Virus record (IMG/VR): IMGVR_UViG_3300006919_000237
Coordinates: 1-31,856 of that record
From: a virus
Direction: 5' to 3' (one strand)
DNA length: 31,856 nucleotides
Position 1 is the stretch's first letter. Every line of letters starts with the position of its first letter. Below the pieces are notes generated by a model that searched no databases, was not told the DNA's origin, and saw nothing but the letters and a program-made list of their open reading frames with translations. The position numbers were made by a program, and so were the translations under genes. Shown here piece after piece: positions 3,424 to 23,685 of the stretch.

Positions 3424-3648
3424 TTAATGAATGTCAACTCCAATTTTTCTTAGCAAGTATTTTGCGACCTGAGTTCCATCCTCATTATCTAAAACTTCCC
3501 AATTGTAAAGTTGGATAACTGTATCCAAATCAGTTAGTGCTTCATCATCATCTAAATATTCATCTAGGTTTAAACGATATAAAGGAACGCCTTTGAAGGT
3601 TCCTGTTATTGCACAAAGTTCAATTTCACTAGGTGTCATTTTCATTTT
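3424..3648 (-). CDS. Hypothetical acidic protein, about 74 aa
   Basis: The frame opens at 3666, but the ATG at 3648 is preferred because GAGGAA lies about 8 bases upstream; a second ATG follows two codons later. The start overlaps the 3' end of the preceding nuclease-like gene. The protein is acidic, with an L-D-E-Y-L-D-D-D-E run in the middle and a C-terminal helix (V-A-K-Y-L-L-R-K-I-G). No signal peptide, membrane segment or known motif. Family not recognised. Its place as the penultimate ORF of the operon suggests co-expression with the curli-like genes. Confidence 0.6.
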   Translation of the reverse strand, partial: KMKMTPSEIELCAITGTFKGVPLYRLNLDEYLDDDEALTDLDTVIQLYNWEVLDNEDGTQVAKYLLRKIGVDIH

Positions 3649-4480
3649 TTGATTCCTCATCATCATTGTCCTGTATCATTTTATTTGGAAACACCGCTTG
3701 GCTTTCTAAAATTGAAGAGGTGTTTGATGTTACAGGTGCTATGTTATAAAAACTTTTTGTTATTCTTCTCATTGTTAATTCTATTGAGGGAGTATAACCA
3801 GGTGCTATTGTTGGGTCGTTACGTTGTTGTTCCCTAATCATTGCACTTTTTATATCATTAGTTTTAATTCTTACTCTAATTCTACATTCATGGTTATTTT
3901 CCCATAAAGGTATGGGTGGATTTTGTCCAATATTAAGTCCTGCAGGGTCATCTCTACCTAAAAGATAAAACCCATGTGTTCCTAATTGAAAATAATGAGT
4001 ATCTTTGGTTTTATAATACCCACTAATTGATGTAGAAGACACAGGAATATAAAATTCTGGGGCATTTTCTATATCTTGTCGGTGTCTTTCTTCTAAATTT
4101 GGCTTGCCTGCATCCTCCCAACGTTTTTTCCACTTATAATCCCTGTCCATACAAGCCCAAATAGGTTTTCTCCACTTGTTTCTGATTAAATTTAGCACAT
4201 TACTTCTTATTGCTAAGTCTATTAAGTAGAGTTTTTCATCTGTAGGGTTATTTTGTGAGAAATCAAAGGTGTTTGTTGCATTTTTGTAATTCAAAGCAAC
4301 TTGTCCGGCGGTTGTAATACGTTTTTTAAGTTCTGCACCGTAACTTTTTCCATTGCAAAGAAATTCTATGTCGGGTCTAGAGTAATCAGCACCCGCCGGG
4401 CGAAAATTTGCATCCGCTAACTTCTTTTTCTTGAGGAATCTTACTGTATTGTCCTCATATAAGTAACCTTCAGGTCTCAT
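3629..4480 (-). CDS. PD-(D/E)XK nuclease-like protein, 283 aa
   Basis: Near the N-terminus, R-P-D-I-E-F (about residues 35-40), a short turn, and then Y-G-A-E-L-K-K (about 47-53) give the D...ExK pattern of the PD-(D/E)XK nuclease core, as in restriction-endonuclease-like and Holliday-junction-resolvase-like enzymes. The rest is mixed alpha/beta with many aromatic residues and an acidic tail. No signal peptide, so probably cytosolic. Its ATG overlaps the preceding stop (ATGA), so it is translationally coupled. A nuclease in a curli/cyclase operon is unexpected; it may be a passenger or act against host or competitor DNA. The exact family is not recognised. Confidence 0.6.
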   Translation of the reverse strand: MRPEGYLYEDNTVRFLKKKKLADANFRPAGADYSRPDIEFLCNGKSYGAELKKRITTAGQVALNYKNATNTFDFSQNNPTDEKLYLIDLAIRSNVLNLIRNKWRKPIWACMDRDYKWKKRWEDAGKPNLEERHRQDIENAPEFYIPVSSTSISGYYKTKDTHYFQLGTHGFYLLGRDDPAGLNIGQNPPIPLWENNHECRIRVRIKTNDIKSAMIREQQRNDPTIAPGYTPSIELTMRRITKSFYNIAPVTSNTSSILESQAVFPNKMIQDNDDEESKNENDT

Positions 4481-4863
4481 AGCTTGTTACATTCCTGTTT
4501 TGCGTCTTTTAAAACATTAAAATTGTTTGCTACTACCACTCCTGTTAAAAGAGTTGTTGGTAGAAGTATTTCGTTTGTTAATTTTTCAGAATTATTAAGA
4601 TTATATAACATGGGTCCTAATATACTTGTTTTTAATGTTATCATTTGATAAATTTTTGGTTTTCTATTTAATAATACATTCGTTTCATAAACACAATCAT
4701 ATTTTATACCCCTATATGTGCTGTATACATCCAAAACCTGAAAAGTATAAAATATAATTAAGTGTTCGGTTGATGCCGGCTCACTTATAGGTATATACGG
4801 ATATACTTTCTGATTTTCCTTTAACTTGTATGCTGTCAACTTTCTTGAATTTTCTTCTTTCAC
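4477..4863 (-). CDS. Small probable membrane protein, start uncertain
   Basis: The convincing part is the last ~110 residues, after the cyclase gene has stopped: hydrophobic L-I-I-F-Y-T-F-Q-V-L-D-V-Y-S-T, then Y-E-T-N-V-L-L and I-L-L-P-T-T-L-L-T-G-V-V-V-A. The D-x-Y-S-T ... E-T-N pattern recalls small membrane proteins with a conserved TM1-D / E-x-N motif, but I cannot name the family firmly. The frame stays open upstream to 5091 inside the cyclase gene. No ATG is well placed, so GTG at 4863 is offered as start with TTG at 4839 as alternative. Either way it overlaps the cyclase 3' end. Its stop overlaps the next ATG (ATGA). Confidence 0.5.
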   Translation of the reverse strand: MKEENSRKLTAYKLKENQKVYPYIPISEPASTEHLIIFYTFQVLDVYSTYRGIKYDCVYETNVLLNRKPKIYQMITLKTSILGPMLYNLNNSEKLTNEILLPTTLLTGVVVANNFNVLKDAKQECNKL

Positions 4864-6616
4864 AGCGTTTATAAGTTTCCTGTCCCAACAACACTCGAAC
4901 CCCATCATAATTTCTTGTTTGACCCTCGAGTCTAGACGCAAGGTTAACGGCGTCTCCAACAACGGAATAATCAAACCGTTCTTCGCTCCCCATGTTTCCA
5001 ACGATGCAATCGCCGGTGTTGATACCAATGCCAACATCAATACGAGGAAGACCTTTTTGTTCCAATTCTTCAGCCAATTTAATTGCTTCAATTTCTATTT
5101 CCCTAGCAGCATTTACTGCTTTTTGAGGATGATTTTCACATTCAATTGGTGCATTCCAAAAAGCCATAATACAATCACCCATAAATTTGTCGATTGTTCC
5201 GCCATGTGATAGAATAATTTTTGTCATTCTGTCTAAGTAACTATTTATTAATTCTACAAGTCCCTCTGGATCGTCCTTATTTTTGTAATATTCTGATATA
5301 GGGGTAAATCCAACAATGTCCATAAACATAAATGTCATGTTTTTCCTATCACCGCCTAATTTCATAAGACTAGGGTCTTTGACTAACATATCAACCATAT
5401 CAGGTGATAGATAAGTTGAAAATTGTCCTTTAATTTGTTGTCTTAGTTTAAATTGTTTGTAAAAGTTATTAAAAGAAGCAGACGTAAACGTTAATATAAG
5501 GGTTATTACGGGAAAACTTATATCTAACAATAGTGAGGTGTTAGTCCAAGCATAATATGCTAATATAGGCGGTGTAAGGAGCGCTAATAGTGTTATAATA
5601 GCACTTATCCACACAGATGCATAGTATACAGCTATAATTACAATAATACTTAATAATAGCGTCCCTAAAAGTTCTATAAAGTCACCATATAATGGTCTAC
5701 TTATATTATCACCATTTATTATTGTTTGCATGGCAGCTGCCTGTAATTTGTGAGGGGGAATTAGGCCCTGTGGTGTTACAACCTGAGTTCCTATACCTTT
5801 TGCTGTTACACCTATTAAAACTGTTTTACCTTTTAGGTCTTTATTTAAGGGTGCCCTCACATAATCTATTTCTTCAAAAGTATAATTAGAATTTAACCAT
5901 ATACTTCCGTCAGGGTCTGTTTTAATTTGAAAGGGGCGTAATATAATTTCTTCAATACCAGCGTCGTTTACTTTTAATGTATATGATAGTTTATCCTGCC
6001 AAGCTCTGATTACTTCTAAAGCCATTGAAGGATAAAGTTGATTATTAATTTGCGATACAAGAGGAATACGTCTTGTTATGTTATCTACTTCTGGTGCACC
6101 GTTAATTAGTCCTGCACCTTGTGCTACATTTTCGATTTCATCAATATTTGTAACAAGTCCGTTATACTTAAAAGCATAAGCATATGGGTCGCCAGTTCCA
6201 AATACAGCTGTTCCTACGTAAGGAGCCTTTTCACTTCTACCATTTGCATCTGCGTCTTGGGCTAATATAATTCCGTTATCTTTTACCCAGGATGCAAATA
6301 CTTCATCGCCTCCAAATCTATCTGCTTCTGGAAACATTATTGTAAATCCTATAAAACCAGCATTAGCCTGTCTTAGATGATTTATCATCATGGCATACTC
6401 TTGTCTAGGCCATGGAAACTGTCCTATTTGCTCTAGGCTTTTTTCACCTATATTAATTAAAACGATGTCGTTTGAATGTTTTGTAGGAAGTGTTTTTATG
6501 TATTGGTCAAACACATTTAGTCTTGTTTGTTCTACTAACTGCGGGTCATTTACTCTAATGCCCAATAATAGGAATGTTAAGAATATGGTTGTCCATATAG
6601 TTGTGATGTATTTCAT
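4781..6616 (-). CDS. CHASE2-domain class III adenylate cyclase, 611 aa
   Basis: A membrane-bound sensor cyclase making cAMP from ATP. Layout: N-terminal membrane helix (residues 7-20), extracytoplasmic CHASE2 domain (about 30-305), three membrane helices (about 315-385), short linker, class III cyclase domain (about 425-600). Catalytic features are intact: metal-binding D433 in F-M-D-I-V-G-F-T, second metal site D481 in D-K-F-M-G-D, adenine-selecting K477 and D555 (S-V-V-G-D-A-V-N), transition-state N558 and R562. That the residues select ATP follows known family rules. The ATG overlaps the stop of the second curlin-like gene (ATGA). CHASE2 cyclases often neighbour FecR-domain proteins in bacteria, as here. 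A full-length sensor cyclase in a phage is very unusual. Confidence 0.93.
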   Translation of the reverse strand: MKYITTIWTTIFLTFLLLGIRVNDPQLVEQTRLNVFDQYIKTLPTKHSNDIVLINIGEKSLEQIGQFPWPRQEYAMMINHLRQANAGFIGFTIMFPEADRFGGDEVFASWVKDNGIILAQDADANGRSEKAPYVGTAVFGTGDPYAYAFKYNGLVTNIDEIENVAQGAGLINGAPEVDNITRRIPLVSQINNQLYPSMALEVIRAWQDKLSYTLKVNDAGIEEIILRPFQIKTDPDGSIWLNSNYTFEEIDYVRAPLNKDLKGKTVLIGVTAKGIGTQVVTPQGLIPPHKLQAAAMQTIINGDNISRPLYGDFIELLGTLLLSIIVIIAVYYASVWISAIITLLALLTPPILAYYAWTNTSLLLDISFPVITLILTFTSASFNNFYKQFKLRQQIKGQFSTYLSPDMVDMLVKDPSLMKLGGDRKNMTFMFMDIVGFTPISEYYKNKDDPEGLVELINSYLDRMTKIILSHGGTIDKFMGDCIMAFWNAPIECENHPQKAVNAAREIEIEAIKLAEELEQKGLPRIDVGIGINTGDCIVGNMGSEERFDYSVVGDAVNLASRLEGQTRNYDGVRVLLGQETYKRCERRKFKKVDSIQVKGKSESISVYTYK

Positions 6617-7170
6617 TGTCTTGTTATTACTGTTGATGAACAGGTAATTGTTGCACAGTCCTGTGAAAAAACGAAGGTGTCGGGAGTCAACTTATCAATA
6701 AACAATTGAACATTGCCGCCGTTTGATAAATTAAGTTGAATGTTGTGTCCGCCATTTCCTCTTGCCTCTACAGCTCCGAAGTTGTTGTTACCCAATAAAT
6801 TAATTTCAACATTATTATCTCCTGAGGTTCCATACCAAGTTCCTGCAAGATTGTTGTTACCAGCAATATTAATAGTGTGAGTGTCGCCCCCAAAGGCCTG
6901 TCCGATGATTTGGTTGTTGGTGCCGGTTACATTTGCAATTAAACTATTTCCGCCCACCCATTGATTGTAGTTTATATAAAGGTAATCGCCCTGGTAATTA
7001 ATATCTATATCATTATCATATCCACGTTGGTCAATGTCTATACGAGAGTTATCACTAGAAACTGTTCCTTGTTGTTCAATGTTTATAACGTTGTCAGCAA
7101 AAATAGTTGTGGTGAGGAATAGCCACCCTAATAGAGTGGCTTTACCTGCATATAGTTTTATATAAGCCAT
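6613..7170 (-). CDS. Curlin-like secreted amyloid protein 2, 185 aa
   Basis: The ATG at 7170 is preferred to the longer frame from 7254: it gives a signal peptide (K-L-Y-A-G-K, hydrophobic core, A-D) and overlaps the end of a small membrane-protein gene. The mature part is rich in Asn, Gly and Gln with curlin-style strand-turn units: N-V-I-N-I-E-Q-Q-G, S-R-I-D-I-D-Q-R-G-Y-D-N, V-T-G-T-N-N-Q-I-I-G, I-A-G-N-N-N-L, L-L-G-N-N-N-F-G, each with a G-x-N-N turn. This matches CsgA/CsgB-type beta-solenoid repeats exported through CsgG. The C-terminus has a C-x4-C pair. It overlaps the cyclase start. Whether it is nucleator (CsgB-like) or fibre subunit (CsgA-like) cannot be told. Confidence 0.82.
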   Translation of the reverse strand: MAYIKLYAGKATLLGWLFLTTTIFADNVINIEQQGTVSSDNSRIDIDQRGYDNDIDINYQGDYLYINYNQWVGGNSLIANVTGTNNQIIGQAFGGDTHTINIAGNNNLAGTWYGTSGDNNVEINLLGNNNFGAVEARGNGGHNIQLNLSNGGNVQLFIDKLTPDTFVFSQDCATITCSSTVITRQ

Positions 7171-7298
7171 TGTAAAAGTAGTATTAGAATAATGCCCTTT
7201 ATAAAAGCTATCCAATAAATATGATAAGGTTCTAATTGCAATAACTCCATCCAAGTTATTACTCTTCTTTCATGCCATTTGATAAATTTACTTAACAT
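7158..7298 (-). CDS. Hidden 46-aa membrane protein inside the curli operon
   Basis: A minus-strand ORF starting ATG-TTA-AGT (7298-7296), preceded by an excellent ribosome binding site (AAAGGAGGAAATTT). A basic, aromatic N-terminal half (F-I-K-W-H-E-R-R-V-I-T-W-M-E) is followed by a hydrophobic helix (I-Y-W-I-A-F-I-K-G-I-I-L-I-L-L-L-Q-W-L-I). Its stop lies just inside the curlin-like gene, so the two overlap by 13 bases and are probably translationally coupled. The ribosome binding site is the best evidence that it is real. It probably inserts in the inner membrane. Function unknown; a helper for the exported protein or a holin-like peptide are options. Confidence 0.7.
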   Translation of the reverse strand: MLSKFIKWHERRVITWMELLQLEPYHIYWIAFIKGIILILLLQWLI

Positions 7299-7315
7299 AA
7301 ATTTCCTCCTTTGTT

Positions 7316-8440
7316 TTATTGTTGTCGGATAAATATAAAGGATTCTTCTCCTTCATTTAAATCTATCACTCCTTCATAACCTTCAACAATGGTTTCTATA
7401 GAAACGTTGGCACCGCTTCTAAGTCTTAATACGATTGTATCGTTTACAATTCTTTGAAATACGATAACTTCGCCTTCCGTAAAAATGTTATATTGACTAT
7501 TACTATTTAGTCCTAAATTTGCTCCTGCGATTGAGACTCCACCGACTGATGATTCTTGTGCCGGGCCAGATCCCTTAACTTTTCTATCTAAAGCCTCTAC
7601 TACATCCAATAAGTCTGTTAGAAAGTCAACGTTTAATAAATCTATATCTAATTCCGTAAATTCTAATTCAGTATCCTCTAATTTATCTTCTTCTAATTCT
7701 GCAAACTCTAAAAAATCTATGTCCAATAAACCTTGGTCGTTGTTTTGTTCATCTTCTAATCCTTCCTGTATTCTATCCAATACTTCTTTGGGAGGATTAA
7801 CAATAAACATATTATCAATCATATTAGGTGTTATACCGACTAATGTAACTGGTTGTGTTGGTAATGAACTAAGGCTAGATACCATTGTAGTTTGATATGC
7901 CTCATTCATTACAATTTCACCTGCTTCGTTTGTTACTGTAATTTCTCCTGAGGCATCTCCATTAGAGTCAGGCAATAAAATAATTAAACTTCTTCCAAGT
8001 TCATCAATAGTTGTTGTGAAGTCTGTTCCACGAATACCTATTGTGGCTGTGGGAGTTTGAATATCAATATTGGCTTTGTTTACCATTGACAGTTTGCCGG
8101 ATGCAAACCTAGCTGTGCCCATTGCAAACTTCATAGTCATTTTAGACTTATTTGGGTCCGGGTCATAATATATTTCATCTATTAAAACTAGCGAATGTTC
8201 TGTTAAAGATAATTGAGCCTCATCTAAAAACTCTAACTTCATTCTTCCTTGAGCTGTCTGTGCGGAATCATATAATTCAACAGGAATAGATGCACCTGAT
8301 ACAACGATATTTTCATCGTTGCGAATTAAAGACGTTACTCCCGTCTGCTCTACAACTTCACCTATAGGCTCTGCATAAACAGAACCCATAAGTAAAAGAT
8401 TAGTCAGAAGTGTCTTTCTGAACGATTTGAATGATTGCAT
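7316..8440 (-). CDS. FecR-domain exported protein, 374 aa
   Basis: An N-terminal signal peptide (K-S-F-R-K-T-L-L-T-N-L-L-L-M-G-S-V-Y-A) precedes a FecR-type domain (about residues 25-170). Typical elements are G-E-V..G-V-T-S-L-I-R, the A-Q-T-A-Q-G-R-M-K-L-E-F region, and T-P-T-A-T-I-G-I-R-G-T-D-F. This last motif is characteristic of FecR-like periplasmic or surface proteins. The middle (about 230-290) is a strongly acidic Leu/Asp/Glu segment, possibly a flexible stalk, and the C-terminal part is strand-rich. It overlaps the first curlin-like gene by 41 bases. FecR-domain proteins are often encoded beside CHASE2 cyclases in bacteria, so it may be the extracytoplasmic partner of the downstream cyclase or a fibre-associated protein; neither is proven. 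Confidence 0.85.
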   Translation of the reverse strand: MQSFKSFRKTLLTNLLLMGSVYAEPIGEVVEQTGVTSLIRNDENIVVSGASIPVELYDSAQTAQGRMKLEFLDEAQLSLTEHSLVLIDEIYYDPDPNKSKMTMKFAMGTARFASGKLSMVNKANIDIQTPTATIGIRGTDFTTTIDELGRSLIILLPDSNGDASGEITVTNEAGEIVMNEAYQTTMVSSLSSLPTQPVTLVGITPNMIDNMFIVNPPKEVLDRIQEGLEDEQNNDQGLLDIDFLEFAELEEDKLEDTELEFTELDIDLLNVDFLTDLLDVVEALDRKVKGSGPAQESSVGGVSIAGANLGLNSNSQYNIFTEGEVIVFQRIVNDTIVLRLRSGANVSIETIVEGYEGVIDLNEGEESFIFIRQQ

Positions 8441-9113
8441 TATCAGATGTTATGTCCAAAGTAATTTCACCTGTGCAAGTAGATACACCTGAGGGACACG
8501 TTCCTGATTGTTGAGTGATATCAATATCAGCCCCATCACCATTAAAGGTAACGTTTTGTTTTTGATAACCACCATCCAACATATTAGAATTAATATTACT
8601 ATTAGAACCTGTAAAGTCCCAATTCCAAGTAGCATCATCGGATTCAAAATCTAAATCCCAAACATTTGAACTACCTACCAATGTAAGGTCAAAGTCTAGC
8701 CTTTCAGCACTAGCAATATAACCTTGGTCAAAATCAAAGGTGTTAGATGACCCTGTAATGTCGATATCAACAACTGAAGTATCGGCACTTCCTATATAAC
8801 CAATATTCCAATCGAATACGTTAGAATCTCCTGTAAATAGTAAATCCCAATCTAATGTATCACCAACAACCGGTCCATATAACAAGTTTGAATTACCTAT
8901 CATATCAATATCAAAGGTAATACTAGAACCTACAATAGTCATTTCAGACCCACCGCTTGTGAAGTCATCTAATCCTATTAAGTTACCGTAACCTACTTGG
9001 TCAATATATAAAGTAAAATTATCACCTGTTTGGTCAATCATAATTTCATTATCTGCTGTATATACTTCTGCTGTAGAAAACAGTAATATAAAAGCGATTA
9101 ATTTATTTTTCAT
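8400..9113 (-). CDS. Curlin-like secreted amyloid protein 1, 237 aa
   Basis: A signal peptide (M-K-N-K-L-I-A-F-I-L-L-F-S-T-A-E-V-Y-T-A) is followed by a D/N/S/G-rich body with regularly spaced G-x-S-N turns: G-N-S-N, G-D-S-N, G-S-S-N, G-S-S-N and G-S-N-S-N. They are spaced 22, 26, 26 and 22 residues apart and separated by alternating hydrophobic/acidic strands (W-D-L-L-F-T, V-D-I-D-I-T, F-D-L-T-L-V). This is a curlin-like beta-solenoid, but unusually acidic and Asp-rich rather than Gln/Asn-rich. Near the C-terminus there is a C-x6-C pair, then another strand pair. The gene follows csgG with a 10-base overlap and has AGAGAGG as ribosome binding site. It is the probable export substrate of the CsgG pore. 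Confidence 0.82.
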   Translation of the reverse strand: MKNKLIAFILLFSTAEVYTADNEIMIDQTGDNFTLYIDQVGYGNLIGLDDFTSGGSEMTIVGSSITFDIDMIGNSNLLYGPVVGDTLDWDLLFTGDSNVFDWNIGYIGSADTSVVDIDITGSSNTFDFDQGYIASAERLDFDLTLVGSSNVWDLDFESDDATWNWDFTGSNSNINSNMLDGGYQKQNVTFNGDGADIDITQQSGTCPSGVSTCTGEITLDITSDNAIIQIVQKDTSD

Positions 9114-9999
9114 TTTTCCTCTCTGTTAGTTTCCAAAGTCCTCTATCCTGACCTTGATATATGAGTTCTAAAACGGCAGCTTCGATTGCTGAACGTGTAG
9201 CATAAGTTACACTCTCGTTTTTACCTACTCCATCCTCATACTCTACAAGCTCGGTGCCTTCTTCAATGAATCTAAATACATCTCCACTTGCACCATAAGA
9301 AAGGATAGTCTTTCTTGCCTGAACATTTAATAAAATTTCTCCAGTTAAAACGGAAACTGCTCTAACAGATACCGTTACAACATCTTTTCTATATTGTCTA
9401 CTTGCTCCTATACCTAAGTAACGAGCTCCCCTACCGCCGGTTAAAATATTAGAATCATATCCTATGATACCGCCTTCTATTATCATACCTGCAAATAATA
9501 ATGGCCCTACATCTGTTGGGTCATCTTCTCCTGCAAACGTTTGTCTAGTAGACCTAACAATTTGTCTTTCTCTTACAAGGTTATCTATACCTTGTCTTTC
9601 AACTACTCTAAACCAAGTTCCATTACCGGCTGTTTTAAGAGCGTCTATTAATAATTCTGTTCCGCCTTGTGTTACTGCTGTTGAGAAGTCTGCTATATTT
9701 TCTTTTGATTTACGTTGTCCTGTTTTATCGCCAAATCCATATACTGCTACAACCGGCATCTGTTCTGCTGGTGGTAAATTAAGTAATTCTAAAAAACTAG
9801 GTAGTTTTACAATTTCAGGAGCATCTACACAAATATATGGCATTGCTCTTTTAAATGTTCTAGGAGCAGATTTAGCCATTGTAAGTAAATCTACTACATA
9901 ACCTTCCTTGTAAGGCTCGCAATCCTCAGGACTATTACTCCATTTAGGAACCGAGGCACACCCCTGCAATAATAAAATTAGAGCAAGTAGATATCTCAT
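9103..9999 (-). CDS. csgG: CsgG, curli outer-membrane secretion lipoprotein
   Basis: A 298-aa lipoprotein with lipobox L-L-L-Q-G-C (C14 lipidated). From about residue 82 it follows the CsgG family closely: V-V-A-V-Y-G-F, D-K-T-G-Q, F-S-T-A-V-T-Q, R-V-V-E-R-Q-G-I-D-N-L-V-R-E-R-Q-I, G-M-I-I-E-G-G-I-I-G-Y-D-S-N, G-G-R-G-A-R-Y-L-G-I-G-A, V-L-T-G-E-I, K-T-I-L-S-Y, F-R-F-I and D-R-G-L-W-K-L. CsgG forms a nonameric outer-membrane channel for curli subunits. The N-terminal region before the domain is about 35 residues longer than in E. coli. In the pore constriction, F105 matches E. coli F56, N55 is replaced by D104 and the Tyr51 equivalent is absent. It starts two bases after csgF. Family certain; that it secretes the two neighbouring curlin-like proteins is inference. 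Confidence 0.95.
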   Translation of the reverse strand: MRYLLALILLLQGCASVPKWSNSPEDCEPYKEGYVVDLLTMAKSAPRTFKRAMPYICVDAPEIVKLPSFLELLNLPPAEQMPVVAVYGFGDKTGQRKSKENIADFSTAVTQGGTELLIDALKTAGNGTWFRVVERQGIDNLVRERQIVRSTRQTFAGEDDPTDVGPLLFAGMIIEGGIIGYDSNILTGGRGARYLGIGASRQYRKDVVTVSVRAVSVLTGEILLNVQARKTILSYGASGDVFRFIEEGTELVEYEDGVGKNESVTYATRSAIEAAVLELIYQGQDRGLWKLTERKNEK

Positions 10000-10000
10000 G

Positions 10001-10543
10001 TTACCCGAAATATCCAGTTCCCATTGGAATTTCTATAATTGTTTCTGTTCCATCCTCGGCGGTGATAGTCATTTTAATTGTTTCACTACCATCTTCTGCT
10101 GTTATAACTTCATATGTTACTATATTGCCTTCAAGTGTGAAGGAACCAAATCTTACTGGATTTTCATTAGCAAACATACTCTCAACTAATTGTTTAGAAA
10201 GTTGAGCATAAATTCTAGATTCCAAGTTACGTATAAACTTAGAAAGTGTAGAGTTATCTTCGGCTCTTGCTGCTGCTTTCTCGGCAGCTTCCAATGCATC
10301 TTTAATTGCCTTCTTTCTACTTGCTTGTTGGTTCTCAATAGTTAAATAATGAGCACCTTGCCCTATGCCACTAAAACTAGGGTTTTTAAATTTGTGAACT
10401 ATCTGGTCAGCCATTACAAGAGGAGCCATTATAAGCATTCCTAATAAACAACCAAAACAAAATATTTTAAACACAGATAGGTTGGACCATAATCCTTGTC
10501 CGGAAAATTGTTTTGCTAACAATTCTTTATCTTTATTTGTCAT
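10001..10543 (-). CDS. csgF: CsgF, curli assembly factor that plugs CsgG
   Basis: A 180-aa protein. After a hydrophobic segment (residues 24-44) ending A-D-Q, the mature start H-K-F-K-N-P-S-F-S-G matches the CsgF N-terminus (F-x-N-P-x-F-G-G), the part known in E. coli to insert into the CsgG pore. It then has Y-L-T-I-E-N-Q-Q-A-S, a helical region with an Ala/Glu-rich insertion, and a C-terminal strand region like that of CsgF. A repeated T-A-E-D-G-S/T-E-T-I unit occurs twice near the end. About 23 polar residues precede the hydrophobic segment, giving an unusually long signal sequence or an uncleaved anchor. Its start overlaps the upstream gene. Encoded directly before csgG. Confidence 0.93.
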   Translation of the reverse strand: MTNKDKELLAKQFSGQGLWSNLSVFKIFCFGCLLGMLIMAPLVMADQIVHKFKNPSFSGIGQGAHYLTIENQQASRKKAIKDALEAAEKAAARAEDNSTLSKFIRNLESRIYAQLSKQLVESMFANENPVRFGSFTLEGNIVTYEVITAEDGSETIKMTITAEDGTETIIEIPMGTGYFG

Positions 10544-10772
10544 TTTTTCTTTTCATGTCCTTCACTACATCTAATTTTTGTTGTAACCTAATCATGTCTT
10601 GGTCTAACATTCTTATTTGGTCAATCAACTTAATCAATGCTATGTGCATAGTTTCTATTTCTGGGTCTAATTTTTCTGTAATAAATTGCCATACAAAATA
10701 AACAAAATAGCCCATACCTACAGCTAAAACAATAGGAAACCCATAATCACTTATCGCTTGTGCAATATCCAT
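10533..10772 (-). CDS. Small TM/coiled-coil protein B, 79 aa (holin-like architecture)
   Basis: One membrane helix (F-P-I-V-L-A-V-G-M-G-Y-F-V-Y-F-V-W-Q-F-I, residues 12-31) follows a short N-terminus (M-D-I-A-Q-A-I-S-D-Y-G). After it comes a heptad-patterned helix (I-E-T-M-H-I-A-L-I-K-L-I-D-Q-I-R-M-L-D) and a basic tail (K-D-M-K-R-K-N-D-K). This architecture is shared with BhlA/XhlA-type holin-like proteins and with small membrane proteins common in marine T4-like phages. The ribosome binding site is AGGAGAG, and the ATG overlaps the previous stop (TAATG). It resembles the gene before it, so the pair may be paralogs. A lysis or envelope role is inferred only. Confidence 0.72.
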   Translation of the reverse strand: MDIAQAISDYGFPIVLAVGMGYFVYFVWQFITEKLDPEIETMHIALIKLIDQIRMLDQDMIRLQQKLDVVKDMKRKNDK

Positions 10773-11068
10773 TAGTCTCTCCTAGTATCTATCTTGCCAT
10801 CTTCAACAAAGTTTTCTGCTCTAGCAAGTCTTTCTATTGGTTGTTCTAAACCAATCTGTTCTGATAGTTTTACATCTATTTTTATAATTTCGTTGTTCAT
10901 AACACTAACTCTGGTTTCCAACATTTTACAAAATCCAGTTAATGTTTTGATATTATCAATGACGCCTTCTAACATTTGGCGTAAGATTATAAAGATAAAA
11001 ACTCCCATGACAAGAGCCCCAGCAATAGGTGCGCCGACATCGGAAATTAATTGAAATACTTCTTGCAC
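10772..11068 (-). CDS. Small TM/coiled-coil protein A, about 98 aa; first gene of the curli operon
   Basis: The longest frame starts at GTG 11092, but that lies upstream of the transcription start predicted from TATAAATA at 11093-11100. GTG at 11068 with AAAGAGG just upstream is preferred, and then the N-terminus (Q-L-I-S-D-V-G-A-P-I) lines up with that of the following gene (Q-A-I-S-D-Y-G-F-P-I). One membrane helix (A-L-V-M-G-V-F-I-F-I-I-L-R-Q-M-L) precedes a coiled-coil-like region (L-T-G-F-C-K-M-L-E-T-R-V-S-V-M-N) and a charged tail. Probable inner-membrane protein, perhaps a paralog of protein B. Its place directly before csgF links it to the curli cluster. Confidence 0.68.
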   Translation of the reverse strand: MQEVFQLISDVGAPIAGALVMGVFIFIILRQMLEGVIDNIKTLTGFCKMLETRVSVMNNEIIKIDVKLSEQIGLEQPIERLARAENFVEDGKIDTRRD

Positions 11069-11092: not shown

Positions 11093-11100
11093 TATTTATA
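11093..11100 (-). promoter_or_regulatory. T4-late-type promoter for the curli operon
   Basis: TATAAATA on the minus strand, the T4 late promoter core, with predicted transcription start at about 11087. It is the only strong promoter match upstream of the minus-strand cluster, so the operon is probably transcribed late, through gp55/gp33-type factors. The 80 bases between it and the divergent early promoter (11101-11181) hold no gene; a weak CCTC/GAGG inverted repeat lies near 11149-11159. Confidence 0.7.
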
Positions 11101-11571: not shown

Positions 11572-12186
11572 GTGGATACAAGAAGTTTATCTAATTGGAT
11601 GAAATTTATTAGATTTCACCCGGATAGAGCAGAACGCTTTATGGATTGTTTTTGGGAATCACAACTAGACTCAAAAATGCGTGTGGTTGAAACCGCACAA
11701 ACACGTCGTTACAATTCCATTTATGTTTTCGGTGGTTGGTATGGTATATTACCACGTATTATGTTAGATTTAGACATGGCAAATTATGTTTATAGTATTG
11801 ATAAGGACCCTGACTGTGAATGGGTCATCAATGATTTAGATAAGGATAGAGATAGGCCTGTTATTGCTATAACCGAATGTGCCTCGCACTTTGAATATAG
11901 TGAACATGAAAATAGCGAAACTATGTTAGTTATTAATACAAGCACAGAACATATGGACCAATTTACTTATAACAAGTGGTGGAATCAAATACCTATAGGT
12001 GCAGATTATATAATACAAGGTAACAACTATTATGATTTAGATGAACATATAAGATGTGCGGACGATATTCATCATTTTAGGCGTATAAATAATTGTGAGT
12101 TATGTGATGGTGCCACTAGTTGGCCATGTGAAGGCACCAATGGCACTTATAATAGATTTATGGCTTGGGGTCGAAATGCAAGATAA
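11572..12186 (+). CDS. Class I SAM-dependent methyltransferase-like protein, 204 aa
   Basis: A GTG start directly after the previous stop, with AAGGA upstream. Residues about 50-80 show a Rossmann methyltransferase pattern: I-Y-V-F-G-G-W-Y-G-I-L-P (motif I, glycine-rich SAM loop), then V-Y-S-I-D-K-D-P (acidic residue after strand 2, binding the SAM ribose). N-T-S-T-E-H-M-D follows near residue 123. A Cys-rich patch (C-E-L-C-D-G) lies near the end. The substrate cannot be read; as the first enzyme of a sugar/metabolite cassette it may act on a small molecule or on a glycan. It overlaps the next gene by 11 bases. Confidence 0.72.
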   Translation: MDTRSLSNWMKFIRFHPDRAERFMDCFWESQLDSKMRVVETAQTRRYNSIYVFGGWYGILPRIMLDLDMANYVYSIDKDPDCEWVINDLDKDRDRPVIAITECASHFEYSEHENSETMLVINTSTEHMDQFTYNKWWNQIPIGADYIIQGNNYYDLDEHIRCADDIHHFRRINNCELCDGATSWPCEGTNGTYNRFMAWGRNAR

Positions 12187-13603
12187 TGTAAACAAAATGC
12201 AGGAGTTGAGAGATACTCTTGATAAAAGGATTTCGCCTACATTTTGTCTAGCCAAATGGCAACATACTCAAATTTACTTACAAACAGGTCAAACTCATTC
12301 CTGTTATCACCCTGCTCCCCATACAATACCTAAAGAAGGCTTATTAGAAAATCCTAGTCAGTTACACAATACCCCTCATAAAAAATTAGAACGTAAAGAA
12401 ATGCTCGAGGGCAAAAAATGTGAGGGCTGTCAATATTGTTGGAATGTTGAAGACATGGGAAGAGACTATGTTTCAGATAGAATGATAAAAACAGGCTCCA
12501 TTTATACTGAGGATAGAGTAAAAGAAATTGAGGACAATCCTTGGGACTTTGATGTTAATCCAGAATATATTGAAATAGTTTTTAGTAATGAATGTAATTT
12601 TAAATGTGGTTATTGTCATCCTATGGCAAGTTCTAGTTATTATCAAGAAATTAAAAAACATGGTCCTTATGATATGGTCAAAAACCATAGACAAGACATT
12701 GATTGGTTTACAGCTTTCCAAGAGGAAGACAATCCCTATGTGGATGCCTGGTGGAAGTGGTGGCCCGAAGTTAAAAAGACATTAAACATTTTACGTATTA
12801 CAGGCGGAGAACCTTTATTACATAAAAGCACATATAGATTATTAGACGACCTTAGAGAAAACCCTGCACCACATTTAAACATTAATATTAATAGTAATTT
12901 AGGAATGAGTAGTAGACACGTTCTTAAAATGACAGAGAGTGTCAACGATTTATTACAAAACAAAAAGATAAAAGACTTTGAACTTTATACAAGTATTGAT
13001 ACATGGAATGAGAGAGCAGAATATTTAAGAACAGGATTAAATTTAAAATTATTTCAAAAGAACATGGACATATATGCTGAGGAAACAAAATGTCCTATTA
13101 ACTTAATGATTACATTTAATGCTTTAGCTGTTACAACATTTAAAAGTTTATTAGAACAAATTTTAGTCTGGCGAGAACGGTATCACGATATAATTGTTCC
13201 TACAGAAACGCATGCTAAAAGGCGTATTAGATTTGATACTCCTTATTTAAAGGAACCGTTACATTATGATATGAACATTTTACCTAAAAGTGAATTCATG
13301 CCATATATGACAGAGTGTTTGGAGTTTATGAAGGAAAACTTAGACGACGATGACCCTAAAAAATTCCAGCAATTAGAATATGAAAAGTTTAGACGTGTTC
13401 ATGATTATATGGCAAAAACACGTTACCCCAAGGACAAATTAAACGAAGGTCGTAAAGATTTTTACAACTGGTTTAACGAGTATGATAAAAGACGTAAATG
13501 TAATTTTTTAGAGACATTCCCAGAGTATGAAGATTTTTATAACAGGTGTGGCAGGATTTCTAGGGAGTCATCTGGCTCAGAAATTCCTATCGTCAACCTT
13601 TAA
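12176..13603 (+). CDS. Twitch-domain radical SAM enzyme, about 475 aa
   Basis: The start at 12176 (M-Q-D-N-V-N-K) overlaps the methyltransferase end; the frame is open further upstream but reads as its shadow. Two cysteine-rich regions are seen. One near residues 80-95 (K-K-C-E-G-C-Q-Y-C-W) could bind an auxiliary Fe-S cluster. The radical SAM site is S-N-E-C-N-F-K-C-G-Y-C-H (C-x3-C-x2-C), followed by I-T-G-G-E-P-L, the glycine-rich SAM-binding turn. N-S-N-L and Y-T-S-I-D-T-W follow as in the TIM barrel. Marine phages often carry this type with an N-terminal 'twitch' part; substrates are unknown. Its last 77 bases overlap the epimerase gene in another frame, an unusually deep overlap. Confidence 0.82.
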   Translation: MQDNVNKMQELRDTLDKRISPTFCLAKWQHTQIYLQTGQTHSCYHPAPHTIPKEGLLENPSQLHNTPHKKLERKEMLEGKKCEGCQYCWNVEDMGRDYVSDRMIKTGSIYTEDRVKEIEDNPWDFDVNPEYIEIVFSNECNFKCGYCHPMASSSYYQEIKKHGPYDMVKNHRQDIDWFTAFQEEDNPYVDAWWKWWPEVKKTLNILRITGGEPLLHKSTYRLLDDLRENPAPHLNININSNLGMSSRHVLKMTESVNDLLQNKKIKDFELYTSIDTWNERAEYLRTGLNLKLFQKNMDIYAEETKCPINLMITFNALAVTTFKSLLEQILVWRERYHDIIVPTETHAKRRIRFDTPYLKEPLHYDMNILPKSEFMPYMTECLEFMKENLDDDDPKKFQQLEYEKFRRVHDYMAKTRYPKDKLNEGRKDFYNWFNEYDKRRKCNFLETFPEYEDFYNRCGRISRESSGSEIPIVNL

Positions 13604-14528
13604 AGTAGCAGGCAACGATACCTTATTGGGTGGGTCATTAGACAATGTCCCCGATGGTGTAGAATTTTATGAGATAGATTGTTGTGATAATCAAGCAATG
13701 GTCGAAGTATTAAAAGATGTTGATATTGTAATCCATTGTGCAGCCACTGCACATGAAGGTCTTTCTGTTTTTAGTCCCTCCTTTATAACAAAAAATATTT
13801 ACGAAGCAAGTGTTTCTGTTATGAGTGCAGCCATACAAAATAAAGTAAAGCGATTTGTTTTTTGTTCTAGTATGGCAAGATATGGAAGTAATATTATTCC
13901 CTTTATAGAAGAACAAGCACCTGCACCTGTTGACCCCTATGGTATTGCTAAAGTAGCTGCAGAGGACACTTTAAAAGTTTTATGCGATACACATGATATG
14001 GAATATAACATAGCAGTTCCTCATAATATAATAGGACCTAAACAGAATTATACAGACCCATATAGAAACGTAATAAGTATAATGGCTAATAGAAATTTGA
14101 GAGGATTGCCCTCAATTATATATGGCGATGGTATGCAGGAAAGATGTTTTTCATATGTTGATGATTGTGTTTCCTGTTTAGAAAAAATGGCTTTAGATAA
14201 AAACATAGTAGGAGAAACTATTAACATAGGACCAGATGAACATACTATTACAATAAATGAGGCAGCTGAGATAGTTGCAAGACAATGTATGTATCAAGAA
14301 GCACCAATACATTTGCCTGATAGACCACGCGAAGTTAAGCACGCTACTTGCTCTAGTAATAAAGCTAGGAGACTCTTAGACTACGAAACAAAGACGGATT
14401 TAGTAACCGCAATACAAAAGACTGTGGAATATATTAGAGAAGCAGGCCCTACGAGTTTTAATTATAACTTACCTTTAGAAATAATAAATGATAAAACTCC
14501 TACAACATGGAAAGATGAGTTAATGTAA
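13527..14528 (+). CDS. NAD-dependent sugar epimerase/dehydratase (SDR), 333 aa
   Basis: An extended-SDR fold enzyme: N-terminal I-T-G-V-A-G-F-L-G-S-H (GxxGxxG NAD-binding motif), D-V-D-I-V-I-H-C-A-A (strand 4), C-S-S-M-A-R (Ser of the active site), and Y-G-I-A-K (YxxxK catalytic pair). Then come P-H-N-I-I-G-P and I-Y-G-D-G-M-Q-E-R-C-F-S-Y-V-D-D, typical of UDP-glucose 4-epimerase and dTDP-glucose dehydratase relatives. It acts on a nucleotide sugar in the cytosol. The start codon lies 77 bases inside the radical SAM gene, and the NAD-binding loop is encoded in the overlap. The stop overlaps the next ATG (TAATG). The exact sugar is unknown. Confidence 0.9.
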   Translation: MKIFITGVAGFLGSHLAQKFLSSTFKVAGNDTLLGGSLDNVPDGVEFYEIDCCDNQAMVEVLKDVDIVIHCAATAHEGLSVFSPSFITKNIYEASVSVMSAAIQNKVKRFVFCSSMARYGSNIIPFIEEQAPAPVDPYGIAKVAAEDTLKVLCDTHDMEYNIAVPHNIIGPKQNYTDPYRNVISIMANRNLRGLPSIIYGDGMQERCFSYVDDCVSCLEKMALDKNIVGETINIGPDEHTITINEAAEIVARQCMYQEAPIHLPDRPREVKHATCSSNKARRLLDYETKTDLVTAIQKTVEYIREAGPTSFNYNLPLEIINDKTPTTWKDELM

Positions 14529-15775
14529 TGAATTTCTTTTTTGAAAATTGGAAACCTATATATGATAGCACAGGTTTGGAAGAACATGCTATGCGGAATT
14601 TTAAAGACTGTAAAGATGTTAATGAATCTGGAATGTCTAGATTTTGTGTTTCTCCTTTAGCAGGAACAATACAGCAATTTGGGTATGAGAATTTAAAGCA
14701 TTGTTATATACAACCAAACTATATTATTTCTGCAGGTGTTCAACATAGTCCTGAAGAATGGGCAGGTAGACCCGAGGATGGAAGAAAGAGTTTTATGCAC
14801 TTTGTAAAAGAAACACATCTTGAAAATTTACAAAACGGCTCTGCTATGTTAATGTTAGATTCCTCATTAGAAGGTTACCATGCACCATGGCTTTACAAGT
14901 TTATGGAAGATGAGTTAGATAAACATAATGTTCCGCATGAGGCAATGGTTTTTGTAACAGGCAATCTGTTAGCAGAAGAGGAATACACGGGAAGAATGAA
15001 AGTTATTTCTTATCCACATTTTGAGAAAGATGTTGGGTGTATGTTACGTTATCAAAATTTAGAAAAGCCCACCTTTGAAAAACATATGGAATACAAGAAT
15101 GTTAATGAAATGAAAACATTTAATGTATTACAAAAAAGACCTAGACGTCATAGATGCTGGTTGTATTCAGCAATACGTTCTGCAAACTTACATCATGATT
15201 GTATAATGAGTATGAATGAGTTTCCTTATAAGGAGTTTCAAGAGTTAGATTATGAGGGTAGACTTTACGAGTATGATTGGATAGGCATAAAAGAAGAACT
15301 TCCTATATTAGTAGGAGGCAAAGACAATGTTTCACTAGGAGACTCTCATTATATAAAAAGATTTAATTTTGATGTATGTTTACAAAGTTGGATAACTGTT
15401 ATAAGTGAGGCATCCTTTTTTGATAGTGATGGAACACAATTTATAAGTGAAAAAACATTTAAAGCATTGGGCTCAAGAACTCCCTTTATTATATTTGGTA
15501 ATAAGGGAAGTTTAAAAAGATTAAAAGAATGGGGTTATAAAACATTTGATACTTGGTGGGATGAAAGTTATGATGAATTAGAATCTTGGGAAAGATTTGA
15601 TGCGATAGTTAAATTATTAAAAGACTTAAATAATCAAAATATGATGACCTTATTTTCTTCAATGGAAGAAACATTAGATTGGAACTATCATACATTATTA
15701 AGAAATTCGTCTAAAGCACCAGATGCTTACTTTAAATTAAAACAACATTATAAGGAGTATTTTAATGTTACCTAA
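14528..15775 (+). CDS. Glycosyltransferase-like protein 1, 415 aa
   Basis: The C-terminal third has F-I-S-E-K-T-F-K-A-L-G-S-R-T-P-F-I, then G-S-L-K-R-L-K-E-W-G-Y-K-T-F and W-W-D-E-S-Y-D. The S-E-K-T ... P-F-I ... G-F/Y-x-T-F ... D-E-S-Y-D pattern is like the nucleotide-sugar-binding half of GT10 (fucosyltransferase-like) and related enzymes. The N-terminal half has no match I recognise. The protein at 16630 shares the same C-terminal pattern, so the two are paralogs or act in sequence. ATG overlaps the preceding stop; ends inside the start of the next gene, whose AAGGAG lies within this coding region. Family call moderate, acceptor unknown. Confidence 0.65.
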   Translation: MNFFFENWKPIYDSTGLEEHAMRNFKDCKDVNESGMSRFCVSPLAGTIQQFGYENLKHCYIQPNYIISAGVQHSPEEWAGRPEDGRKSFMHFVKETHLENLQNGSAMLMLDSSLEGYHAPWLYKFMEDELDKHNVPHEAMVFVTGNLLAEEEYTGRMKVISYPHFEKDVGCMLRYQNLEKPTFEKHMEYKNVNEMKTFNVLQKRPRRHRCWLYSAIRSANLHHDCIMSMNEFPYKEFQELDYEGRLYEYDWIGIKEELPILVGGKDNVSLGDSHYIKRFNFDVCLQSWITVISEASFFDSDGTQFISEKTFKALGSRTPFIIFGNKGSLKRLKEWGYKTFDTWWDESYDELESWERFDAIVKLLKDLNNQNMMTLFSSMEETLDWNYHTLLRNSSKAPDAYFKLKQHYKEYFNVT

Positions 15776-16637
15776 TCCTTTAAAGAAACCATTACTTAAA
15801 ATATTAACTGAAGACCATAAACTTTTAATAGGGTTAGGGTGTAGTTTTACACAGGGGCAAGGTTCATATTCAATAGAAACACAAGAGAAAAGAAATTGGA
15901 ATATTAGAGTTGATGACAATGACGAAGAGCTTGTTAGTGAGGCTTATAATAATTCTTGGGTTAATTTAGTAGCTAAGGAAATAGGCTATATGCCAATTAA
16001 CTTAGGACAAGCAGGTGGTGGTAATAGACAGGCAGCTAAGTCCTTGCATATGTTTCATAACAAAAAATTACAAAATGCAAAAGAAAAAATTGTTATTTTT
16101 ATGATGTCAGGAATAGAAAGATTTAGTTATATTAAAAAAGGGTTTGAACATGCTGGACAGGATTATTGGTTTACTTGTTGGCCTAATGGTGATGTCTCCG
16201 AGGATAATCCTATGAAAAATGTTTGGAGGGGGTATGCATCAGATGTATATTCTGATGATGTAGGATTTTTAGAGGCATATTTAAATCTAATGGAAGTTGT
16301 TACCTGGTGTAAGGCACATAATGCAAAACTTATTCTTACGCCCGCATTTTCTCCTGATTACATTAATGAATTATTTTTACCAGCTTTAGATTTTAATCCT
16401 AATTTTGATTTCTTTTATCCTAAGGGAAGATTAAGTATGTTTCATTATTTACTAGAACAAGATGGCTTTAATGAAAATATACAAAATGGTGGGTATTGGG
16501 AAGAAATAAATTTCAATGATAATTACCCTAAAGGAACAGAACACGTAAGTCGTTGTTGTCATCCTAATCAAAAAGGCCACGAAGTTATAGCTAAAATATT
16601 AATAGAAGAATTAAAAAGGAGAGAGTATATTGGATAA
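15765..16637 (+). CDS. SGNH/GDSL-type hydrolase 1, 290 aa
   Basis: Near the N-terminus, I-G-L-G-C-S-F-T-Q-G (about residues 25-34) matches block I of SGNH hydrolases, with the nucleophile Ser in C-S-F. Then N-L-G-Q-A-G-G-G-N-R (block II Gly and block III-like Asn), and near the C-terminus C-C-H-P-N-Q-K-G-H-E-V-I-A (block V, with the catalytic His). SGNH enzymes are esterases or acyltransferases acting on acylated sugars among others. The gene has AAGGAG upstream of its ATG and overlaps both neighbours. Between two glycosyltransferase-like genes, removal or transfer of an acyl group on a glycan is plausible. Confidence 0.75.
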   Translation: MLPNPLKKPLLKILTEDHKLLIGLGCSFTQGQGSYSIETQEKRNWNIRVDDNDEELVSEAYNNSWVNLVAKEIGYMPINLGQAGGGNRQAAKSLHMFHNKKLQNAKEKIVIFMMSGIERFSYIKKGFEHAGQDYWFTCWPNGDVSEDNPMKNVWRGYASDVYSDDVGFLEAYLNLMEVVTWCKAHNAKLILTPAFSPDYINELFLPALDFNPNFDFFYPKGRLSMFHYLLEQDGFNENIQNGGYWEEINFNDNYPKGTEHVSRCCHPNQKGHEVIAKILIEELKRREYIG

Positions 16638-17865
16638 TCCATATGTATTTAGGCAGGAATGTTTTTGGGTGAATATACCTCACGAAACAAACAAATTAGA
16701 TTTCTTTGCACAATTTATACCCAAAAGATTAGGTGGATTGTTAAATGATAAACCGACAATATTATATACAGGTATTAAAAGAATAAATTTTGGTAAATGG
16801 TTAGAACGTTGGAGCGATGAAACATGGAATGCCTTAAAAGGAAAAGAAGTAAATATTTTTCTATACGAGCCGTCCACGTGGTATTTTCCAGGAAAAGATG
16901 ACGTAAATTTAGGACACTATAGCGAATTCCCTGCTTCATTTAACGAAGTAGTAAGGTCAATGGAATTAGATTCTATAATGGCTTGGAGTAAGGAAAGGGA
17001 TATCATTCCTAACGTTATAACATCGGATTATAATATACGAGAACATGCTAGTAATTATCCTGGTTGGTTTAATCAAAGACTTTACACCTATGATACTTAC
17101 ATAAGACAAATTTCAGGCCCAATGGGCGCAGTTAGATATGGAGAGGAAGAATTAAATACAAGATTCTTTTGTTGTAATAGAAGATATGCACCTCATAGAC
17201 ATATGATGTCGGCTTACTTAGCAGACAAAAGTGCTAATTTATCCTGGCCCTTTGAAATGTCGGGCAAATATGATGATTTTAAAGACTATGCTTGGATGGA
17301 AATGAATAAATTTTCTAAAGAAAGAAGAGCAGAATTAAAAGCAGGATTTAAAAATTTAAATGAAAATACTCATTCTATAGATATGAATCATGGAGGAGAA
17401 AAAACACATTTATATGATTTTCATGTAGCAGGAAGTTTTAGCCCTGACCCAGAACAGGATAATACAGAAGAGTTCATACGTAAATATTCTAGGTCCTGTA
17501 TTGCTGTTGTAAATGAAACTAGGTTTGGGCAACCCACAGGTTATTTTAGTGAAAAAACTTGCGACCCAATTAGATTAGAAGTTCCTTTTGTTTTAGTTGC
17601 CCCTCCTCATACATTAGAGTATATGAATCATATGGGCTTTAGAACTTTTTGGCAACATTGGGACGAAAGTTATGATAAAATAGAAGACCACACAGAAAGA
17701 ATGGAAGCTATTTTTAAATTGCTGGATTGGATGAATGAAATGCCTTTTGAACAATTAAAAGATTTATTTAAAGATACAAGAGAAATTTGTGAACACAATA
17801 GGGAAGTTATACGATATGGTTTATATAACAAGCCGTATCAACAAATATACGAAACTAAGAATTAA
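16630..17865 (+). CDS. Glycosyltransferase-like protein 2, 411 aa
   Basis: A TTG start, supported by AAAAGGAGAG about 6 bases upstream and overlap with the previous stop. The C-terminal part has Y-F-S-E-K-T-C-D-P-I, V-P-F-V-L-V-A, M-G-F-R-T-F and H-W-D-E-S-Y-D, the same series as in the protein at 14528, so both probably share a GT10-like or related sugar-nucleotide-binding domain. The N-terminal half differs between the two and may define the acceptor. A basic/aromatic stretch (F-F-C-C-N-R-R-Y-A-P-H-R-H) lies at about residue 180, as seen before the donor domain in related enzymes. The 3' end converges with and overlaps the minus-strand oxygenase gene by 11 bases. Confidence 0.62.
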   Translation: MDNPYVFRQECFWVNIPHETNKLDFFAQFIPKRLGGLLNDKPTILYTGIKRINFGKWLERWSDETWNALKGKEVNIFLYEPSTWYFPGKDDVNLGHYSEFPASFNEVVRSMELDSIMAWSKERDIIPNVITSDYNIREHASNYPGWFNQRLYTYDTYIRQISGPMGAVRYGEEELNTRFFCCNRRYAPHRHMMSAYLADKSANLSWPFEMSGKYDDFKDYAWMEMNKFSKERRAELKAGFKNLNENTHSIDMNHGGEKTHLYDFHVAGSFSPDPEQDNTEEFIRKYSRSCIAVVNETRFGQPTGYFSEKTCDPIRLEVPFVLVAPPHTLEYMNHMGFRTFWQHWDESYDKIEDHTERMEAIFKLLDWMNEMPFEQLKDLFKDTREICEHNREVIRYGLYNKPYQQIYETKN

Positions 17866-18355
17866 CTTTTGTTCCTGTAATCTGTAACGTATATCTAGGC
17901 TCTACACCTATGTTACTTGCACCATGAGGCACACTTCCTTTCCATAATACGTATTCGCCTCTTTCCCAATTCATACCCGCCTGACCATCTATTTCAAAGT
18001 AATGTCCTGATTTCCAGTCTTCTAAAAATACAACTGCCCTCCAAACATTTTCATAATCTTGTTTAAAAACTTCGCAGTATTTTTTATAGTGGTCTGAATG
18101 AACAGGCATTATATCTAAAAAACTCATTTTATAAAAAACAAATCCGCAGTTTTCTAATCCCAAATTTTTTCCTACTTCATGAGCCCATCTAGGAACAACA
18201 TCTTTACCACCATACATTTTTCCAAATGTTGTATCATGTGTATACCCTTGACGTTTCCATTCCTCAGCTTGAAACCCGGTAATTGGTTCGGGTTTATATG
18301 GAAACGCCTTAAAGGAGTCGTCCCATATCATATCTGTTTTTCCGTTATCCCACAT
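17855..18355 (-). CDS. 2OG-Fe(II) oxygenase-like protein, 166 aa
   Basis: Strand-rich C-terminal half with V-H-S-D-H-Y (HxD iron-binding pair, about residues 91-96), G-S-V-P-H-G-A-S-N (distal iron-binding His) and P-R-Y-T-L-Q-I-T-G (Arg for 2-oxoglutarate). This is the order of the double-stranded beta-helix of 2OG-Fe(II) dioxygenases, close in style to aspartyl/asparaginyl hydroxylase-like phage enzymes. Probable reaction: hydroxylation of a small molecule, sugar or protein side chain. The ATG lies inside the end of the amidinotransferase gene (11-base overlap), so the two are co-translated and may act in sequence. Confidence 0.75.
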   Translation of the reverse strand: MWDNGKTDMIWDDSFKAFPYKPEPITGFQAEEWKRQGYTHDTTFGKMYGGKDVVPRWAHEVGKNLGLENCGFVFYKMSFLDIMPVHSDHYKKYCEVFKQDYENVWRAVVFLEDWKSGHYFEIDGQAGMNWERGEYVLWKGSVPHGASNIGVEPRYTLQITGTKVNS

Positions 18356-19869: not shown

Positions 19870-19875
19870 ATAGGA

Positions 19876-19883
19876 TATTTATA
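19876..19883 (-). promoter_or_regulatory. T4-late-type promoter, leaderless, in a 14-bp divergent gap
   Basis: TATAAATA on the minus strand; predicted start 19870, one base before the ATG at 19869. It fills most of the 14 bases between this gene and the plus-strand gene at 19884, whose only signal is AGGA at 19872-19875. Confidence 0.7.
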
Positions 19884-21909: not shown

Positions 21910-22019
21910 CAAAGATTAAAAATAAAATCCGCAAATTTTTTGAGGATAGAAAACACAAAAAATTAAAAGAAAAAAGATTAAAGGAGTTAAAGAAAAGAGA
22001 CCCCTTTATATATCACTAA
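21894..22019 (+). CDS. Tiny Lys-rich basic protein, 41 aa
   Basis: ATG at 21894 with AAAGGAG about 6 bases upstream, overlapping the end of the SGNH hydrolase gene; stop TAA at 22017-22019, just before the AAGGAG of the carbamoyltransferase gene. More than 40% of residues are Lys or Arg, in a helical pattern (I-K-N-K-I-R-K-F-F-E-D-R-K). The good ribosome binding site and exact fit between two genes support reality. Possible nucleic-acid- or membrane-binding peptide; no known family. Confidence 0.6.
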   Translation: MPRFITKIKNKIRKFFEDRKHKKLKEKRLKELKKRDPFIYH

Positions 22020-22029
22020 GGAGTTAGCT

Positions 22030-23626: not shown

Positions 23627-23677
23627 AGTATCTCTCCTTACTATGGTATTTCTTTAATTTATAAAAACAGAGTTGCA

Positions 23678-23685
23678 TATAAATA
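23678..23685 (+). promoter_or_regulatory. T4-late-type promoter, leaderless
   Basis: TATAAATA followed by exactly five bases and the ATG at 23691. With T4-late spacing, the first transcribed base is the A of that ATG. Confidence 0.75.

Follow-up and report, generated by a model that had tools for sequence, protein, structure and literature searches.

We analyzed a window of 31,856 bases, which is the complete IMG/VR virus record IMGVR_UViG_3300006919_000237 and is itself a fragment, and found that the minus-strand curli-type secretion operon of this T4-like phage carries a gene at 4477..5091 (minus strand) that is overprinted on the 3′ end of a CHASE2-cyclase gene. An open second frame, synonymous constraint within the overlap and apparent cassette exchange together show, at the level of comparative sequence analysis, that this region is double-coding. 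In our view it is likely that a second frame over the catalytic core of the cyclase encodes a DUF5658-like protein that is secreted or resides in the membrane, that a conserved motif of the cyclase provides the start codon and signal segment of this protein, and that marine phages exchange the double-coded end as one cassette, such that the catalytic end and its envelope partner are swapped together.

The +1 frame of the cyclase end is open and constrained

Read in the +1 frame relative to the cyclase, the overprinted gene covers approximately 104 codons of the cyclase 3′ end and extends for approximately 100 more past the cyclase stop, and in the window its stop codon overlaps the ATG of the next gene. 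IMG/VR contained 308 relatives of the cyclase. We collected 94 distinct cyclase loci and scored the presence of the gene by a homologue of the post-cyclase part, independently of the overlap. Of the 94 loci, 49 had such a homologue, and in every one of the 49 it was in the +1 frame and ran on from the cyclase end without a break. We also considered that the DUF5658-like part might be an independent downstream open reading frame, and rejected this because no copy was present elsewhere in the 3 kb downstream. The +1 frame was open for 96-147 codons inside the cyclase in all 49 loci with the gene, and the longest opening in the other 45 loci was 43 codons. Following shuffling of synonymous codons, 96 open codons were reached in none of 1000 shuffles per locus; the 49 loci are related and do not amount to 49 independent tests, each of them alone giving P ~0.001.

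Third-position variation of the cyclase in loci with the gene was 0.46 in the overlap compared to 0.63-0.77 in other parts of the same genes (Mann-Whitney 3e-6), and there was no drop in the corresponding region of the cyclase in loci lacking the gene. At cyclase codons 540-590, third-position diversity was 0.26 with the gene versus 0.538 without it, with nearly equal diversity at the first and second positions in the two groups (0.196/0.127 and 0.181/0.127). In pairs matched for divergence, the third-position difference was 0.233 inside versus 0.451 outside where the gene is present, and 0.539 inside versus 0.460 outside where it is absent. The same third-position result was obtained in each of two separate groups of with-gene loci.

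The start of the gene must lie between cyclase codons ~509 and 540, because most loci have upstream stops at about codon 509 and strong constraint is seen from codon 540; the candidate start codon in the window is a TTG. In nearly all loci the constrained part is preceded by an in-frame ATG and a hydrophobic, signal-like segment (48/48 in the first count). Loci without the gene also have the ATG (21/24) and the hydrophobic segment, a finding that led us to drop the ATG and signal peptide as proof of the overprinted gene. Both features are by-products of the cyclase sequence and so neither prove the start nor point to selection. Their presence may account for the ability of the frame to give rise to a secreted protein at all.

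The cyclase end and the overprinted gene appear to be exchanged together

On a tree built from the non-overlapping part of the cyclase, the gene switches between present and absent at least 8-10 times. Near-sister pairs in which one member has the gene and the other lacks it are 73-88% (mostly 80-88%) identical in the cyclase at residues 20-500, and 52-57% identical at residues 516-609. The simplest reading of these sequences is that recombination swaps the catalytic end of the cyclase and the overlapping gene together as one unit. In one locus (L098) a cyclase end of the with-gene type has been kept, the downstream part has been lost and stops are found in the freed frame, which is a natural loss of the overprinted gene.

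The product is predicted to be a secreted or membrane DUF5658-like protein, in which a signal segment and a short loop domain with a Cys-Cys, under selective constraint, would precede a C-terminal three-helix, DUF5658-like membrane domain. The structure model showed a signal helix and three C-terminal helices that were predicted confidently, with a loop of poor prediction quality in between. DUF5658 was matched by 35 of the 49 members at E<0.01 (best 1.7e-6), and the window protein itself scored 18.2 bits against a cut-off of 25.2. A fold search with the model gave no match, and the protein had no match in 50,697 deposited phage records. The 289 alphaproteobacterial genomes searched gave partial matches only, chiefly to the cyclase-overlapping stretch, that is, to the alternate frame of the cyclase, and mostly with stops.

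It is possible, but quite unlikely, that 4477-5091 is not a separate gene and that only the post-cyclase part is translated, from an internal start, or that it is fused to the cyclase by a programmed frameshift. The derivation of the start codon and signal-like segment from the cyclase would be compatible with this, as would the occurrence of a Shine-Dalgarno-like motif in only 23 of the 49 loci with the gene. However, a late start is ruled out by the synonymous constraint from cyclase codon 540 together with the frame that is open back to codon ~509, and a frameshift fusion would replace the catalytic Asn and Arg of the cyclase; since these residues stay conserved, the fusion could at most be a second product. 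The low synonymous variation in the overlap might alternatively reflect the recent spread of a cassette by recombination rather than double coding, given the apparent exchange of the cyclase 3′ end between phages in the sister pairs. This we regard as highly improbable, because synonymous variation is normal (0.72) in the non-overlapping part of the gene, where the mean amino-acid identity is only 0.33, so that recent common ancestry is not the cause of the low variation. Moreover, the first and second cyclase positions are as variable as in loci without the gene, and recent spread would leave the opening of the +1 frame unexplained.

Components of the curli-type module

The operon spans 11068 to 4477 on the minus strand, with neighboring genes that overlap or abut almost throughout, and encodes, in order, two small single-span proteins, CsgF, CsgG, a curlin-like protein, a FecR-domain protein, a second curlin-like protein and the CHASE2-cyclase. 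The first-pass annotation of this DNA had described a minus-strand operon of a T4-like phage, with overlapping genes for CsgF, CsgG, two curlin-like exported proteins and a FecR-domain protein. The layout agrees with this description; Pfam searches identified CsgF, CsgG and the FecR domain in the window, and the two curlin-like proteins are recognized through matches in their families. The assignment to a T4-like phage follows from the genes for gp32, a DNA end protector, a tail tube and a baseplate hub at the right end of the window. These genes led us to reject a misassembly with host DNA, which had been raised as a concern at first pass, as did the occurrence of the module on numerous phage contigs, including 11 on which the T4 major capsid gene is found as well. 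A search for the same gene order in marine viral genomes had also been suggested then; among 80 CsgG loci fetched from IMG/VR, the order from the two small membrane proteins through CsgF, CsgG, curlin, FecR and curlin to the cyclase was kept in every marine locus that was long enough to show it. The more distant loci (L063-L083) are without the second curlin gene and largely without the small membrane proteins.

CsgF (10001..10543, minus strand) was identified by PF10614 at 5.5e-15, above the cut-off, and CsgG (9103..9999, minus strand), the outer-membrane secretion pore lipoprotein, by PF03783 at 2.7e-53, with a lipobox Cys14 that is invariant across the family alignment. The two curlin-like exported proteins (8400..9113 and 6613..7254, both on the minus strand) are homologous to each other. 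In the window both lie below the Pfam thresholds for PF07012 (Curlin_rpt), which matches 22 of 34 members of the first family and 13 of 27 members of the second. The first protein contains six G-x-x-N motifs at a spacing of 22-32 residues, and its AF2 model, made without the two rows from deposited phages, is a regular all-beta repeat fold (pLDDT 80.7, pTM 0.74) that resembles beta-helix proteins and the FapC amyloid only weakly. The initial annotation would have been undermined by the lack of a solenoid fold in these proteins, and a regular all-beta repeat is what is predicted for the first of them. In the second family, one member matches a PA14 domain (2.7e-6), and the protein of Pelagibacter phage HTVC008M (L002 7639-8964) has a long N-terminal extension that is absent from the others.

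The FecR-domain protein (7316..8440, minus strand; PF04773 4e-8) is predicted to be exported and has no internal membrane span. A hydropathy scan likewise found no internal span in 56 of its 58 relatives, most of which have only an N-terminal signal. Judging by its sequence, the protein seems unlike the anti-sigma regulator after which the domain is named, because it is exported without an internal span and hence without a cytoplasmic anti-sigma part. The gene at 4781..6616 (minus strand) encodes a CHASE2 sensor (PF05226 4e-40) fused to a class III adenylate/guanylate cyclase (PF00211 4.6e-21). The catalytic Asp, Asp, Lys and Arg are found in 94 of 94 homologues and the Asn in 92 of 94; the catalytic residues are thus intact in sequence, and the enzyme would be expected to produce cAMP. 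Since an exported FecR-domain protein is known to adjoin a CHASE2 sensor in a bacterial biofilm operon (PMC5192318), the same adjacency here suggests by analogy that the FecR protein and the CHASE2 domain form a sensor pair, the output of which would be cAMP.

The two small proteins at the head of the operon, A (10772..11068, minus strand; open reading frame listed to 11092) and its paralogue B (10533..10772, minus strand), match phrog_18771 at 7.4e-19 and 9.7e-25, respectively. The start of protein A was placed at the GTG at 11068 on the basis of the Shine-Dalgarno sequence AAAGAGG that precedes it. Alignment of family members shows one N-terminal span followed by a coiled-coil-like tail. A Pfam scan of 39 members found neither a kinase domain nor a holin match in any of them, and 5 of the 39 gave a weak match to the holin family phrog_4898 (best 3.8e-5, for protein B). 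We take these to be the proteins labelled histidine kinases (HK) in PMC9599517, a label that fits poorly because they are short single-span proteins without a kinase domain.

Upstream of this first gene, at 11093..11100 on the minus strand, lies the T4-type late promoter element TATAAATA. The element is not enriched across the whole window (11 found, 7.5 expected), but 39 of 67 relatives have NATAAATA within the 90 nucleotides upstream of their first gene, compared to 1% of control stretches inside the module. The earlier proposal of a T4-late promoter at the head of the operon is supported, and the head coordinate of 11068 given then is correct.

Neighboring genes and related contigs

Directly after the overprinted gene, at 3629-4480 on the minus strand, lies a gene for a 283-residue protein with a weak match to phrog_26930 (6e-7); its PD...ExK-like motif (RPDIEF...GAELKK) suggests a PD-(D/E)XK-type nuclease. 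Scans of this protein and of 3424-3666 returned nothing convincing, and we do not count either in the module because neither has relatives in the fetched loci. On the other side of the operon, 11572-27051 is a variable island of likely surface-polysaccharide genes, with radical SAM proteins, epimerase-like open reading frames, a carbamoyltransferase, a UDP-sugar dehydrogenase and a DegT-like aminotransferase fragment. In the more distant set of fetched loci, one curli-FecR-cyclase module (L066) is located on a contig that is 297,258 bases long, may be a jumbo phage and also carries a distant T4-type capsid gene. Others (L164-L170) place a phage-type curli module with the small membrane genes on contigs of marine metagenome-assembled genomes labelled as various bacteria, and are likely phage contigs binned with bacteria.

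Proposed function of the module

We propose, with a probability of roughly 0.6 for the explanation as a whole, that a T4-like marine phage of the pelagimyophage type expresses a curli-type (type VIII) secretion module late in infection, and that this module combines a FecR-CHASE2 sensor pair with an overprinted envelope partner of the cyclase. CsgG and CsgF would form an outer-membrane pore that exports the two curlin-repeat proteins onto the surface of the infected cell, where they may form fibres or amyloid. The cyclase, through its periplasmic CHASE2 domain, would constitute an envelope sensor pair with the exported FecR-domain protein and make cAMP, and the inner membrane would contain the two small single-span proteins. 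The overprinted product, which this phage shares with about half of its close relatives, may act as an envelope partner of the cyclase or of the sensor, a role that we infer because the gene and the cyclase are locked together and apparently exchanged as one unit. The benefit would most likely be an altered cell surface, which would keep sibling cells together or block phages that compete. Several observations weigh against this proposal. The model of the first curlin-like protein had no significant match in the PDB, and the scan of the operon proteins gave no CsgE, CsgC or CsgD; PMC9599517 reports these to be absent from alphaproteobacterial curli modules as well. In addition, the authors who described Methylophilales phage Melnitz observed no clumping of infected cells (PMC9004378).

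The Melnitz authors instead proposed, from structure models and gene position, a role in lysis (PMC9004378), in which CsgG-CsgF would be a gated pore that times or triggers lysis in a pinholin- or secretin-like manner and the curlin-like proteins would be plugs or secondary. The resemblance of protein B to a holin family would fit such a role, but it is weak and was not accompanied by any Pfam holin match in the family. We consider a lysis pore unlikely, since the two curlin-repeat proteins, FecR and the cyclase stay with the pore in all marine loci that are long enough, and an outer-membrane pore would not let the endolysin through the inner membrane. The idea that the pore serves the uptake of scarce nutrients such as iron or cobalamin, with FecR as an iron-dependent regulator, draws on the FecR label and has been suggested in PMC7029224 and PMC9599517. 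It appears improbable here, because the exported FecR protein, like 56 of its 58 relatives, lacks the internal span and thus the cytoplasmic anti-sigma part, and because nutrient uptake would leave the curlin-repeat proteins unexplained.

To our knowledge, standard gene finders disallow same-strand overlaps of this length, so that the overprinted gene would be missed routinely. The curli module is known from some of the commonest ocean phages, where several purposes have been proposed for it, and a component that had been overlooked alters what needs to be tested. The gene is also a well-controlled natural example of overprinting, in that some loci have it, others lack it, one has lost it and the cassette appears to be exchanged. 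It illustrates how a signal segment can arise, in another frame, from a catalytic motif. Furthermore, the results question the labels histidine kinase and iron regulator, both of which have guided ideas about function.

Comparison with known systems

The curli cluster as found here is correct but already published, having been described between 2020 and 2022 (PMC7029224, PMC9004378, PMC9599517). The view of the first-pass annotation that the full set is richer than what was known did not hold: PMC9599517 (2022) reports HK, CsgF, CsgG, CsgA/B, FecR, CsgA/B and adenylate cyclase in myo- and podo-pelagiphages, as well as oceanic expression, and the pelagiphage type VIII module of that paper and of PMC7029224 (2020) has the same genes in the same order as the window. 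The module differs from the description in PMC9599517 in that its small proteins are without a histidine kinase domain and its FecR protein is not anchored in the membrane; the passages searched make no mention of the overprinted gene. As far as our searches of the literature and of deposited phages extend, neither the gene nor its exchange with the cyclase end was found to have been reported.

Among deposited phages, HTVC008M (NC_020484) and Melnitz (MZ577097) have a gene order identical to that of the window, and the window CsgG is 50% and 43% identical to theirs, respectively. Both are without the overprinted gene, having stops in the +1 frame of the cyclase, and their flanking genes are unlike those of the window. 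The Burkholderia BiofilmReg operon (PMC5192318) resembles the window in that an exported FecR-domain protein lies beside a CHASE2 sensor; however, its output is a histidine kinase with a response regulator, with no curli genes as described, whereas the output in the window is a cyclase. Alphaproteobacterial curli operons contain CsgF-CsgG with curlin-repeat genes, as in the window, and most bacterial CsgG relatives, which are mainly from alphaproteobacteria, have CsgF and/or curlin genes alongside. The clearly bacterial loci that were fetched had no FecR or CHASE2 cyclase beside CsgG, with the exception of Hyphomonas sp. TMED17 (L171 8459-14482), in which CsgF-CsgG-curlin-FecR-cyclase is found amid ordinary chromosomal genes. 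Such a set thus exists in a cellular genome, and that of Hyphomonas sp. TMED17 is possibly a cellular relative of the phage module.

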